Source: an uncultured Erysipelotrichaceae bacterium
GTDB taxonomy: Bacteria > Bacillota_I > Bacilli_A > Erysipelotrichales > Erysipelotrichaceae
Assembly: GCA_946537835.1 (NCBI GenBank)
Contig: CAMNGB010000002.1
Coordinates: forward strand, 1 to 46,091
Length of the DNA: 46,091 nt
Direction of reading: 5' to 3'
Shown here: positions 7,188 through 14,598 of the stretch, piece by piece
How positions within the stretch are numbered: position 1 is the first letter of the stretch
How the letters are laid out: every line of letters begins with the position of its first letter
Translations under genes and position numbers: made by a program
The notes under the pieces: generated by a model
The model's database searches: none
Told to the model about the DNA's origin: nothing
Seen by the model: only the letters and a program-made list of their open reading frames with translations

Positions 7188-7208
7188 AAAACAGCCCGCA
7201 GGCTGTTT
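7187..7208. terminator. Bidirectional terminator between convergent genes
   Basis: The stem AAACAGCC/GGCTGTTT with loop CGCA lies between the C39-like peptidase gene and the convergent capA-like gene. The minus strand ends in a run of five T; the plus strand in TTT. It overlaps the stop codon of the minus-strand gene. Confidence 0.7.
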
Positions 7209-8425
7209 CAGAGTCCGATCTGGAAGGAACTGTCGTAACGGTGTACGACATCATCAATCATTTTCTGATAGAAGGCATCCTTGTCGGGGAATAATCCTTC
7301 TTCAATATCCTTGTAGAATACAGAGTGAATATTTTCAAATGTTCCTTCATAGGCGGTAAAGATCAGATCGATCTTCACATCCTTGATTGCAATTTCGACG
7401 GTTCCGTTCGGCTGGACCGTCTTTTCTATGACCAGAGAGGAGGCCATGCCGGTATTGACTTCTTCCCAGGAGGTATCTTCCAGAACGTCCTGAGAGTTGA
7501 TGGCATTGCCCATGGCGTAATAGCAGAGTGTCTTTCCGTCATTCAGCCACTGTACCGGCTGGATGTTATGCGGGTGGTTGCCGATGATGATATCGGCACC
7601 GGCATCCGCAAGCTGCTGGGCAAGTGAGAGCTGCTCATTGTCGGGGTCTGCCGTATACTCTACGCCCCAGTGCATGGAGACGATGACGATGTCGGCTTTC
7701 TGATCGGCTTCCCTGACCCAGTTCATCAGTTCCTGTTCATGATCGCGGTAACAGTTGACCATATATTCATGACCGGGTTCGGTTTCGTAGCCGTTCATGC
7801 CGTAGGTCCAGGCAGTGAAGGCATAGGTAATGCCGTTGACTTCGTGAACGGCAATTTCATGCCGCTGTTCTTCGGAAACATTCAGACCCGATGTCACAAC
7901 TTCAGGATGTCCTTTCCAGAAGGTGTCGGAATTGACGATTGCCTCTTCTCCCTTGTCGAGGGAGTGATTGTTTGCCGTAGATACCAGATTGAAGCCCTTG
8001 GATACCATATAGTCACCGAAGGACTGGGGACAGTTGAAGTGCGGGAAAACGGTAATGCCGAGATGGTCACCGCCGAGGATGGTTTCCTGGTTGTAGAAAG
8101 CCAGGTCATAGCTTGCGGCAGGGTTTGCAATGCCGTCCATTTCTCCGTCCCAGAGATAACTGCCGTCTTCCTGCCGGGCCTGATCGATGCATTCGATCTG
8201 AACCAGAGCATCGCCGAGAATATACATCGAGGCGGTTGTGATCTGCGGCTCGCCGCGCCACAGAATGTTTTTTTCAGTATGTTCGAGAGGCCTTTCCTGC
8301 TTGGTATATACCGGTTCTTCGGTAAAAGAGAATTTACTGATCATGAAGACGCCGGCGATGATCAGAGCCAGGGGAAGGATCACCTGGAATTCCTTGCGCA
8401 GATGCCGTGATTTTCTTTTTGCCAT
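7208..8425 (-). CDS. CapA family membrane-anchored metallophosphoesterase-like protein
   Basis: The 405-residue protein has one N-terminal membrane anchor (about residues 15-31) after a basic start, so the domain faces outward. It shows the CapA/PgsA calcineurin-like blocks: GDALVQIE, NQETILGG, STANNHSLDKG, IVSMHWGVEYT and IIGNHPHNIQPVQ. Relatives take part in poly-gamma-glutamate capsule synthesis, but many Bacillota carry solitary copies of unknown role, and no pgsB or pgsC is nearby. No Shine-Dalgarno precedes the ATG. Instead an extended -10 (TGGTAAGAT) ends 6 nt before it, so the mRNA may be leaderless. Confidence 0.88.
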   Translation of the reverse strand: MAKRKSRHLRKEFQVILPLALIIAGVFMISKFSFTEEPVYTKQERPLEHTEKNILWRGEPQITTASMYILGDALVQIECIDQARQEDGSYLWDGEMDGIANPAASYDLAFYNQETILGGDHLGITVFPHFNCPQSFGDYMVSKGFNLVSTANNHSLDKGEEAIVNSDTFWKGHPEVVTSGLNVSEEQRHEIAVHEVNGITYAFTAWTYGMNGYETEPGHEYMVNCYRDHEQELMNWVREADQKADIVIVSMHWGVEYTADPDNEQLSLAQQLADAGADIIIGNHPHNIQPVQWLNDGKTLCYYAMGNAINSQDVLEDTSWEEVNTGMASSLVIEKTVQPNGTVEIAIKDVKIDLIFTAYEGTFENIHSVFYKDIEEGLFPDKDAFYQKMIDDVVHRYDSSFQIGL

Positions 8426-8431
8426 ACCAAA

Positions 8432-8440
8432 ATCTTACCA
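8432..8440 (-). promoter_or_regulatory. Extended -10 promoter of the capA-like gene, apparently leaderless
   Basis: On the minus strand the sequence TGG-TAAGAT (8440-8432) is an extended -10 element. Only 6 nt separate it from the ATG at 8425, so transcription should begin at or next to the start codon. No Shine-Dalgarno could fit. Confidence 0.6.
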
Positions 8441-8483
8441 TAAGAATGAGAAAATGTATTTTACAGGGAGATTCTCTTTTTCC

Positions 8484-8492
8484 TGTTATAAT
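8484..8492 (+). promoter_or_regulatory. Extended -10 promoter of the MATE gene, apparently leaderless
   Basis: TGT-TATAAT is a consensus extended -10 box. It ends 7 nt before ATG 8500, so the first transcribed base should be at or beside the start codon. It lies back to back with the capA-like promoter in a 74-nt intergenic gap. Confidence 0.7.
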
Positions 8493-8499
8493 TGCGGAT

Positions 8500-9864
8500 A
8501 TGGACATTTCTTCCTACATCGGAAATAAGGAGTTTTACCGGGAGACCGCAAGGATTGCGGTTCCGCTGGCCCTGCAGAGTGCGCTGATGAGCTGTCAGTC
8601 GATGATCGATACCCTGATGGTGTCGTGGATCGGAAAAGTATCCGCAGTCGGCACGGCCGCCCAGATCGATACCCTGGCAAGCATGATTGCCTACGGCTGT
8701 ATCGGCGGCATCAGTATTTTTGCCTCGCAGTTTTACGGTGCTGACGATACCGCAAATCTGAAACGGTGCACCGGTCTGGGTCTCTGTCTGGTACTGACCA
8801 ATGCACTGCTGTGGATCACGGCTGCCACCTTCTTCGGCAGTTCCATCCTGTCGTTCTATATGGGCGATGCTGCAGTCGTTGCCGACGGTCTGCTGTATCT
8901 CAATATCTCCAGATTCACCTTGCTGGTATCGGGGATTTCATTCATTATTTCCAACATGTACCGTTCCACCGGGCAGCCGGGCATTGCCCTGCGGATCTCG
9001 GTTCTGACTACGGTATGCAATGTGACGCTGAATTATCTGCTCATATTCGGCATCGGTCCGTTTCCGGAACTCGGTATCGAAGGAGCGGCGCTGGCAACAC
9101 TTCTTGCCCAGTGCATTGCCTGCATCACCCTGATCGGATACGCATTAAAATCCAGGCAGAAGTTTATCGGCTCCCTGCCGGAACTGTTCGGCTTTGACAT
9201 GGGCTTTGTCAGACCGGTGCTGGATCGGATCCTGCCGCTGATTCTCAATGAAACAGCCTTCGGGTTCGGCCAGACCCTGTTTATCAAAGCCTTCGGATAT
9301 CTCGGAAAGGACCAGATGGATGCCTACTATGCCGGCAATCAGATCTTCAACCTGATGACATTTGTCATCTACGGATACGGCAATGCCGTGCAGATCCTGC
9401 TCGGTCAGAAACTGGGGAGGGGAGATATCGAGGAAGCAAAAAAAGAATGCAGACAGCATATCGGCCTGGCCTTTGTGCTTTCCTGCATTCTGGTCACATT
9501 CCTGGTGATCTTTGCAAAACCGATGGTTTCCCTGTTTGCCCTGACGGATCCGGCTGTTGAAGCCATGGCTGTCATGATCGTCAGAGTCCTTGCCATCAAG
9601 GCATCGATGCGCCTGTATAATTTCATGATCTTCTGCATTCTCAGATCGGGCGGCGACGCAAAGGTCATTCAGTTCCTGGATTCCGGACTGGAGTGGCTGG
9701 TCGGACTGCCGTGTGCCTTCTTCTGTGTCATTGTTCTGCACATGGACAATATTGCCCTGGTGCTTCTCATCACGCAGCTGGAACAGCTGGTGCGTCTGGT
9801 TCTGGGCATGCGGCGGGTAATGACATACCGCTGGGCAAATGACCTGACGAAGCTTGTGGCATAA
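8500..9864 (+). CDS. MATE family efflux transporter
   Basis: The 454-residue protein has about 12 hydrophobic segments in two similar halves, as in MATE (NorM/DinF) exporters, which expel drugs or metabolites using a sodium or proton gradient. Typical segments include ETARIAVPLALQSALMSCQ, IDTLMVSWIGKVSAVGTAAQ and the second-half equivalent LPLILNETAFGFGQTLFIKA. The frame is open further upstream, but ATG 8500 gives the normal MATE N-terminus and sits 7 nt after a consensus -10 box. No Shine-Dalgarno is present. The substrate is unknown. Confidence 0.92.
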   Translation: MDISSYIGNKEFYRETARIAVPLALQSALMSCQSMIDTLMVSWIGKVSAVGTAAQIDTLASMIAYGCIGGISIFASQFYGADDTANLKRCTGLGLCLVLTNALLWITAATFFGSSILSFYMGDAAVVADGLLYLNISRFTLLVSGISFIISNMYRSTGQPGIALRISVLTTVCNVTLNYLLIFGIGPFPELGIEGAALATLLAQCIACITLIGYALKSRQKFIGSLPELFGFDMGFVRPVLDRILPLILNETAFGFGQTLFIKAFGYLGKDQMDAYYAGNQIFNLMTFVIYGYGNAVQILLGQKLGRGDIEEAKKECRQHIGLAFVLSCILVTFLVIFAKPMVSLFALTDPAVEAMAVMIVRVLAIKASMRLYNFMIFCILRSGGDAKVIQFLDSGLEWLVGLPCAFFCVIVLHMDNIALVLLITQLEQLVRLVLGMRRVMTYRWANDLTKLVA

Positions 9865-9869
9865 GAAAA

Positions 9870-9898
9870 GAGTTCAAAAATTGAACTCCTTTTTTTCT
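9870..9898. terminator. Bidirectional terminator between the MATE and ABC exporter genes
   Basis: The stem GAGTTCAA/TTGAACTC with loop AAA is followed by C and eight T on the plus strand. On the minus strand the same stem runs into TTTTCTT. It separates two convergent transcription units. Confidence 0.9.
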
Positions 9899-11768: not shown

Positions 11769-13921
11769 TTTGCCAGTTCCTCCTCGCTCAGCTGAGAGAG
11801 CGCGATTTCCTGATAGACAGAACAGTTTTTCATCAGTTCGGCATGGGAGCCGATGCCGGCAACGCGGCCTTCGTCAAGAACGACGATGCGGTCTGCCTGC
11901 ATGATGGTGCTGATGCGCTGGGCAACGATGAAGACGGTCGCCTGGGTTCTTTCGATCATCTGATTCAGTGCTTCCCGCAGTTTTGCGTCAGTCTGATAGT
12001 CAAGAGCACTGAAGGTATCGTCGAAGATATAGACCTGGGCATCCTTGGTCAGAGCCCGGGCAATTGAGAGACGCTGTTTCTGACCGCCGGAAACATTCGT
12101 TCCGCCCTGCGAGATCTCTTCCTGCAGGCGGTTCGGCATGCGGTCGACAAATTCCTTTGCCTGGGATACTTCCAGGGCATTTTCGATGGCTTCTTCAGAT
12201 GCATTTTCATCGGCATAGCGGAGATTGGATTCGACTGTGCCGGAGAACAGAATGCCTTTCTGGGGAACATAGCCGATACGCTCACGCAGTTCCTTCTGGG
12301 GAACACTGCGGATATCGGTATCACCGAAACGGATACTTCCTTCGGTGACATCAAAGAATCTCGGAAGCAGATTGATCAGCGTTGATTTGCCGGATCCGGT
12401 TGAACCGATAAAGGCAACGGTCTCGCCCGGCGAGGCGGTAAATGTAATGTCACTGAGCACGTTCTGTTCGGCATTGGGATAGCGGAACGAGACATGATCG
12501 AAGGTGATGGTCTGATTTTCTTCCGGCAGATGCACGGGATTTTCCGGATCGTGAATCGACGTCTCTGTTTCCAGCACTTCAAAGATACGGTTGGCGGAAA
12601 CGGCAGAACGGGGAATCATGATGAAGATCACGGCAACGATCATGAAGGAAATCAGAACATGCGTGGCATACTGCAGGAAGGCAAGCATGTCACCGATCTG
12701 CATGGTGCCGAGATCAATGGCATTGGCACCGATCCAGATGATCAGAATCGATACGCCGCTCATCAGGAAGGTCATGGTCGGGGATATGACCGCCAGGACC
12801 CGGTTCAGGAACATGTTCAGTTTTGTAATGTCGCTGTTTGCCCTGTCAAAGCGTTCTTCTTCATTCTTTTCATTGTTGAAGGCGCGGATCACCAGCATGC
12901 CGGAGAGCTGTTCACGGATGACAAGGTTCAGGCGGTCGACCATTTTCTGCACGATGCGGAACTTCGGCATCGTGAACAGGAAGGTGACGATCATCAGGGC
13001 AATCATCAGCAGGATCGTCCAGCCCAGCACCATTGCCAGGTTTTTAAAGCGCAGTACCTTGAACAGCGATGTCAGCCCCATCATCGGTGCAAACAGAACG
13101 ATTCTCAGCATCATGGTCAATACCTGCTGGACCTGCTGGACATCGTTGGTCGTACGGGTGATCAGGGATGCGGTGGAGAACTTTGACAGCTCTTCGCTGG
13201 CAAAGGATTCAACCTTGGCAAAGACATCGGCGCGCATGTTCCGGGCGGCACCGGTGGCGGTGCGGCTGGCCAGGAAACTGGATGCGATGGCACACAGCGA
13301 AGCCATCAGGGCAATTCCCAGCATCAGCAGGCCTTCGTGCAGAATGTAGTCATTCTGCATCTTTTCGGTATCCATGCCGATTTTTGCATATTCATTCCGC
13401 AGCATCAGGATCTGGGCGGCTTTCAGGTTGTCGGCAGTGAATCCTTCGGTTCTTTCTTTCAGAGCCGAGCGGAAGGAATCGGCCGCAGCCGGATTCGTTT
13501 CCAGCATGGCCCAGACCTGTTCGGGAGAAACATTCATGGCTGAGGAGGCCTGATCGCTGCTCAGGAAGGAAACCAGCAGGAACGGTTCTTCCAGGACGGC
13601 GCGCAGTTCTTCACTGTCGTTTTTCAGAACGTAGACTTCCCCGCCGGCATCCGGATACAGGGTGCTCTCGGCGGGTTCATAGCTGTCTTCCAGGAGTCTG
13701 GCACCGTCTTCATCCATGAAGTATTTCATGTGCTGAAAGGTATCGCTGCTCAGTGCTTCCGGAAGGGTATCGCTGATCCCTCCGTACTGTATTCCGTAGG
13801 TAACAATATCAGACATGTAGTCCGGCAGGGCGAGATCAAACTGCACCTGCAGGAATACCAGGCCAATAATCATGATTACGGAGAGCCAGAAGGGTTTGAG
13901 ATAACGCATTGCTTTGATCAT
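11765..13921 (-). CDS. Heterodimeric ABC exporter, subunit with degenerate ATP site and large ectodomain
   Basis: The 718-residue half-transporter carries a normal Walker A (GSTGSGKST) and signature (NVSGGQKQR). Walker B reads VYIFDDTFSALD, with Asp for the catalytic Glu, and the H-loop reads IVAQRIST, with Gln for His. This is the non-hydrolysing side of an asymmetric pair. Between the first and second membrane helices lies about 150 extra residues (roughly 35-190), mostly acidic and soluble, which would form an extracellular domain. It is the first gene of the two-gene minus-strand operon. GGAGG lies 8 nt before the ATG. A TACAAT -10-like box sits at 13939-13934. Confidence 0.92.
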   Translation of the reverse strand: MIKAMRYLKPFWLSVIMIIGLVFLQVQFDLALPDYMSDIVTYGIQYGGISDTLPEALSSDTFQHMKYFMDEDGARLLEDSYEPAESTLYPDAGGEVYVLKNDSEELRAVLEEPFLLVSFLSSDQASSAMNVSPEQVWAMLETNPAAADSFRSALKERTEGFTADNLKAAQILMLRNEYAKIGMDTEKMQNDYILHEGLLMLGIALMASLCAIASSFLASRTATGAARNMRADVFAKVESFASEELSKFSTASLITRTTNDVQQVQQVLTMMLRIVLFAPMMGLTSLFKVLRFKNLAMVLGWTILLMIALMIVTFLFTMPKFRIVQKMVDRLNLVIREQLSGMLVIRAFNNEKNEEERFDRANSDITKLNMFLNRVLAVISPTMTFLMSGVSILIIWIGANAIDLGTMQIGDMLAFLQYATHVLISFMIVAVIFIMIPRSAVSANRIFEVLETETSIHDPENPVHLPEENQTITFDHVSFRYPNAEQNVLSDITFTASPGETVAFIGSTGSGKSTLINLLPRFFDVTEGSIRFGDTDIRSVPQKELRERIGYVPQKGILFSGTVESNLRYADENASEEAIENALEVSQAKEFVDRMPNRLQEEISQGGTNVSGGQKQRLSIARALTKDAQVYIFDDTFSALDYQTDAKLREALNQMIERTQATVFIVAQRISTIMQADRIVVLDEGRVAGIGSHAELMKNCSVYQEIALSQLSEEELAK

Positions 13922-14010: not shown

Positions 14011-14598
14011 ATGGGACTGTACGACAGTGAGATCCGTGAGCCGCTGTTTGACTGGCTGGAAGAACAGTACGGAATGATCCGGATCCTCGAAGAAAAACAG
14101 ATGGGAAAAGCCAGGGCGGATGCCGTCATGGTGACTGCAGCCGAACTGTACGGCATCGAGATCAAAAGCGATGCCGACAGCTATGCCAGGCTTGCGAACC
14201 AGGTCAGGTACTACAACTGGTATTATGACCGCAACTATATTGTTGTCGGCGTCAGTCATGCGGCGCATATTGCCGAACATGTGCCGGAATGGTGGGGCAT
14301 CATTACAGCTGAAGAAGAGGACGGCGGTGTGGATCTGTATGAAATGCGGAAACCGCAGCTGAACCCGAAGCGGAAGATGCAGCGCAAGATCACCCTGCTG
14401 TGGCGGCCGGAACTGGTGCGGATCCAGAAGCGGAATCACCTGCCGGCATATAAGGAAAAATCAAAGAAGTTCGTGCAGGAAAAGATTCTGGAGAAGATAC
14501 CCGAAGATCAGCTGCACCGGGAAATATCCAGAGAACTGTTTGAAAGGGACTATACCTTGATTGAGGAAGAACTGAAAGAATACAGACGGCAGAGATGA
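14011..14598 (+). CDS. Sce7726-like / PD-(D/E)XK nuclease-fold protein
   Basis: The 195-residue protein has a restriction-endonuclease-fold signature: Asp37 in RADAVMV, then GIEIKSD with Glu50 and Lys52, followed by a helix ending RYYNWYYDRNYIVVG. This arrangement, with a basic helical C-terminus (about 115-195), resembles the Sce7726/MmcB-type nuclease-like families, whose function is poorly known. No methylase or restriction partner is nearby, so it is probably not a restriction enzyme. It stands alone, divergent from the ABC exporter operon, and is followed at once by its own terminator. The family call is tentative; the catalytic motif is clear. Confidence 0.65.
   Translation: MGLYDSEIREPLFDWLEEQYGMIRILEEKQMGKARADAVMVTAAELYGIEIKSDADSYARLANQVRYYNWYYDRNYIVVGVSHAAHIAEHVPEWWGIITAEEEDGGVDLYEMRKPQLNPKRKMQRKITLLWRPELVRIQKRNHLPAYKEKSKKFVQEKILEKIPEDQLHREISRELFERDYTLIEEELKEYRRQR

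Follow-up and report, generated by a model that had tools for sequence, protein, structure and literature searches.

The window, the 46,091-nt stretch of DNA analysed here, comes from a Solobacterium-like gut bacterium with a genome of ~51% GC. Solobacterium belongs to Bacillota, Erysipelotrichia, Erysipelotrichaceae in the NCBI taxonomy. The genome assembly that contains the window is incomplete (1.92 Mb, 178 contigs, 82% complete). A capA-like gene and a gene for a MATE-family transporter are divergent and separated by 74 nt (8426-8499). The features discussed below are:

7208..8425, minus strand: capA-like gene (405 aa, ATG at 8425), PGA_cap domain (Pfam PF09587, E 1e-52), predicted leaderless mRNA
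8426..8499, no strand: divergent intergenic region with both promoters, coordinates read from the sequence
8440-8432, minus strand: extended -10 element TGGTAAGAT, 6 nt (TTTGGT) before the capA-like ATG (8425-8423)
8484-8492, plus strand: extended -10 element TGTTATAAT, 7 nt (TGCGGAT) before the MATE ATG (8500-8502)
8500..9864, plus strand: MATE-family transporter gene (454 aa, ATG at 8500), Pfam PF01554 (MatE, E 1.1e-41), predicted leaderless mRNA
9870..9888, plus strand: intrinsic-terminator-like hairpin directly 3' of the MATE gene, from a consensus scan
14011..14598, plus strand: third leaderless-type gene (195 aa, no Pfam match), TATAAT-TCTGTC-ATG, no Shine-Dalgarno (SD) sequence

A first-pass annotation had described the 74-nt gap and the two extended -10 elements at 6 and 7 nt, and we confirmed these from the sequence. 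There is no SD upstream of the capA-like ATG or of the MATE ATG. An SD is present at most gene starts of the window; the earlier statement that nearly all other genes have one was slightly overstated, as the gene at 14011 lacks an SD and a few other starts are SD-poor. The capA-like hexamer, TAAGAT, is a weak -10. Given a 17-nt spacing, the -35 positions of the two promoters would be ~4 nt apart, and each is a poor match to TTGACA. A consensus promoter scan that required a -35 recovered neither promoter, as expected if the promoters are of the extended -10 kind and have weak -35 boxes. Terminator-like sites, such as the hairpin 3' of the MATE gene, numbered 7 compared to 2.3 in shuffled sequences, so each is individually weak.

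It could be argued that the two -10-like boxes occur by chance, and that the real promoters are farther upstream or that translation starts downstream at a codon with a ribosome binding site. The weak -35 boxes and the lack of a match in the consensus scan fit this argument. In addition, the next in-frame start in the capA-like gene, a GTG at residue 15, is preceded by an SD-like AAGGA ~9 nt upstream. However, this GTG is at the edge of a membrane helix, and the next in-frame ATGs, at residue 28 of the capA-like protein and residue 30 of the MATE protein, are both inside a membrane helix (TM1, the first, in the MATE protein). A start upstream of the capA-like ATG is impossible because there is an in-frame TAA within the -10 box, four codons before the ATG, and no start codon between. 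The MATE N-terminal motif YIG...FY begins just past the ATG and is conserved among orthologues. An upstream GTG at 8407 was considered as a MATE start and rejected; it would cross the capA-like start, and the corresponding stretch in orthologues contains stops or is unrelated in sequence. Alternative starts for the two genes are excluded or unlikely. Together with the spacing statistics and the conservation described below, which extends to orthologues with 53% protein identity, the N-terminal conservation and the in-frame stop make chance boxes a highly improbable explanation.

We found that -10 boxes are concentrated 6-7 nt before ATG start codons across the genome. Using a simple home-made script, we called 1085 genes over 1.31 Mb of the window's genome and recorded -10 boxes before in-frame ATGs near gene starts. 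There were 36 boxes at 6 nt and 21 at 7 nt, compared to approximately 5 at adjacent spacings. Out-of-frame ATGs, which served as a control, had no peak at 6-7 nt, and there was no clear peak for GTG and TTG starts. Most of the ATGs in the peak had little or no SD: 34 (at 6 nt) and 19 (at 7 nt) had an SD match of at most 3 nt, and only 1 and 0 had a match of at least 5 nt. SD-led ATGs had -10 boxes 18-32 nt upstream instead. This mutual exclusion is partly trivial, since a -10 at 6-7 nt would overlap an SD, but the sharpness of the peak relative to adjacent spacings is not.

The peak was also seen in an expanded test, in which ATGs were searched over a range of 60 nt, giving 665 SD-less candidates, and the expectation was taken from the other spacings. 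The pattern TA(at least two of TAA)T was found at 6-7 nt before 61 of the 665 ATGs (7.8 expected, p ~3e-33). The same box with a TGN extension, as in the MATE promoter, was found 24 times (1.5 expected). The weaker capA type, in which TGN is joined to a hexamer that matches at one of the three middle positions, was found 7 times (1.2 expected). TGN preceded 24/61 leaderless-type boxes versus 41/181 leadered boxes. From these counts, a single match of the MATE type is almost certainly real, and one of the capA type is very probably real before conservation is taken into account. By a rough classification, 66/1046 called genes (~6%) are leaderless-type.

The position of the peak bears on whether the mRNAs are strictly leaderless. 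They might instead have very short SD-less leaders (~4-10 nt, or a variable 1-5 nt). RNA polymerase can shift its choice of start by 1-3 nt, and a start at the A at 8498 would leave the MATE mRNA with a 2-nt leader. There was also a small secondary -10 peak at 10 nt before the ATG (13 cases). Three MATE orthologues (L006, L007 and L009) have 10-11 nt between the -10 and the ATG, and L006 and L007 share the spacing of the secondary peak; some mRNAs in this 10-nt class possibly carry a 3-nt leader. However, the main peak is at exactly 6-7 nt, the canonical distance from a -10 to the transcription start, and is specific to ATG. Short leaders are therefore an unlikely alternative to leaderless mRNAs.

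To follow conservation gene by gene, we used three samples, the MATE, capA-like and surE genes. The -10 box is 6-7 nt before the MATE ATG in 6/12 orthologue genomes, is at 10-11 nt in three more, and the arrangement is missing from the other three (G004, G025 and G008). The -10 elements and their distances from the ATG are:

MATE, window genome: TATAAT, 7 nt
MATE, G011: TATAAT, 7 nt
MATE, G017 (L011): TGGTAAAAT, 7 nt
MATE, G016 (L012): TGATATATT, 6 nt
MATE, G013 (L013): TATATT, 7 nt
MATE, L036 (53% identity): TATAAT, 6 nt
MATE, G035, G005 and G031 (L006, L007 and L009): TATAAT, 10-11 nt
capA-like, G011 (protein 78% identical): TGTTAAGAT-TTTGAT-ATG, 6 nt
capA-like, L046: TGTTAAAAT, 8 nt
capA-like, L047: TGGTACAAT, 6 nt
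capA-like, L049: TACAAT, 6 nt

Promoters at 6-7 nt persist in orthologues of both genes although the flanking sequences have diverged. Several of the more distant capA-like homologues (~40-46% identity) are SD-led, although in two of them (L056 and L061) a -10 box is again at 6-7 nt. The MATE orthologues of the sister family (L015-L018) are SD-led. Orthologues of surE (L187-L204) are leaderless-type in the window's genome and in G011, its closest relative. In most of the remaining genomes of the genus they have an SD or some other arrangement. Judging from the surE sequences, conservation of individual leaderless genes appears to be limited.

The first-pass annotation had singled out the divergent pair of leaderless genes as striking. 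Our counts do not bear this out. Among 113 divergent pairs, 27/226 gene ends (~12%) were leaderless-type. One double-leaderless pair, capA-like/MATE, was observed, and 1.6 were expected (113 x 0.119^2). The divergent neighbor of the third leaderless-type gene, at 13921, is SD-led.

The two genes might nevertheless work as a unit, in which overlapping polymerase sites act as a compact leaderless switch facing both ways and co-regulate capA-like and MATE. The -35 positions almost abut, and the two polymerases should then interfere with each other. G011 also retains the whole arrangement, the divergent pair and both promoters, in a slightly shorter gap (65 nt), with the sequence between the two -10 boxes changed. 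However, linkage of the pair was kept in G011 only; in the other genomes the two genes are separated or one of them is lacking. The best matches to the two genes are on different contigs in G004, G013, G016 and G017, and a close MATE orthologue is lacking in G014 and G020. Leaderless-type promoters persist even so, without the partner adjoining, for MATE in G013, G016 and G017 and for capA-like in G004, G014 and G020. Inspection by eye revealed no conserved operator. With the pair count at chance level, a co-regulating switch is very unlikely. Because that count is close to chance and the promoters occur apart in other genomes, the two genes are best read as independently leaderless and neighbors by chance.

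Based on these results, we think it very likely that two sigma-A-type extended -10 promoters make both mRNAs leaderless, as members of a genus-wide class, and that their pairing is coincidental. The two promoters would face apart in the 74-nt region, and each would set the transcription start at the first base of the AUG or no more than 1-3 nt away. The 5'-terminal AUG would then be read by the leaderless route (a 70S ribosome, or 30S with initiator tRNA and IF2) and not by SD pairing. The divergent arrangement would be a coincidence, probably without coordinated control. We counted several points against this reading: the absence of the MATE arrangement from 3/12 genomes, the SD-led capA homologues, the weak TAAGAT, the AAGGA before GTG15, and the 10-nt class. 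The earlier proposal that both transcripts start at the AUG is well supported, as a prediction, by sequence and conservation.

Leaderless genes are known in Bacillota, and the capA-like/MATE case is an instance of a known phenomenon; what is new is the lineage in which it is found. Zheng et al. 2011 (PMC3160421) reported leaderless ("TA-led") genes in 56/209 Firmicutes genomes, at a mean of 4.2% and with a concentration in Lactobacillales and Mycoplasma. Those genes have the same box and TG extension as the genes described here, but the host here is a genus of Solobacterium-like Erysipelotrichaceae with ~51% GC. That leaderless mRNAs are uncommon in Bacillota, as first stated, holds for enterococci (<1%; PMC7724050) and for C. 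difficile (15 genes; PMC7438776). It does not hold for streptococci, where dRNA-seq found 8.6-9% of mRNAs to be leaderless (PMC6431027), or for this genome, with an estimated ~6%. The streptococcal mRNAs are, as here, a minority class conserved between species, but they were mapped experimentally, whereas those described here are predicted. A further difference is that single genes here (e.g., surE) are leaderless in some members of the genus and SD-led in others. Work on leaderless mRNA lists Erysipelotrichia as a class with a canonical anti-SD (PMC10783764). In a literature search with incomplete coverage, where absence is weak evidence, we found nothing that links "leaderless" with Solobacterium. 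The gap resembles the general class of divergent promoters with abutting -35 regions in having two promoters that face apart, here within 74 nt. It differs in that both outputs are predicted to be leaderless and there is no sign of shared regulation.

We found that the 6-7 nt spacing is enriched across the genus. TATAAT-N6-7-ATG was more frequent than TATAAT-N3-4-ATG in 36/36 genomes (2969 vs 1735, ratio 1.71, sign test 2.9e-11). Leaderless genes are thus predicted to be a genus-wide minority class beside an SD-led majority. In contrast, the 24 sister-family genomes had no N6-7 excess (6016 vs 6082, ratio 0.99). Families were compared by pattern counts rather than gene calls, because the home-made caller is simple and called g37 (28.5% GC) poorly. 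In a wider sample, the excess recurred in genera g19, g23, g24 and g25 of the same family; family f3 had no excess (ratio 0.94). Another family of the same class, f5, with small genomes (~0.8 Mb; within G063-G198), had an excess too (1.69 in g30 and 1.41 in g28).

On balance, we favor the view that leaderless initiation was expanded or retained in this Erysipelotrichaceae family, is patchy elsewhere in the class and essentially absent from the sister family, and that orthologues switch between SD-led and leaderless starts. If so, the family would be a natural system of orthologues that alternate between the two kinds of start. These findings place a gut lineage among those Bacillota where a measurable fraction of the genes probably has leaderless mRNAs. 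They bear on the annotation of start codons, on the predicted effect of drugs that leave leaderless translation intact, and on the study of switching between modes of initiation in genes of close relatives.

Loss of ribosomal protein S1 was also considered as an explanation and rejected, as multi-domain S1 was not found in most genomes of both families and does not discriminate between them. Multi-domain S1 was not found in 57/60 Erysipelotrichales genomes from both families, which had single S1-domain matches only. Three genomes of genus g6 had a longer S1 match.
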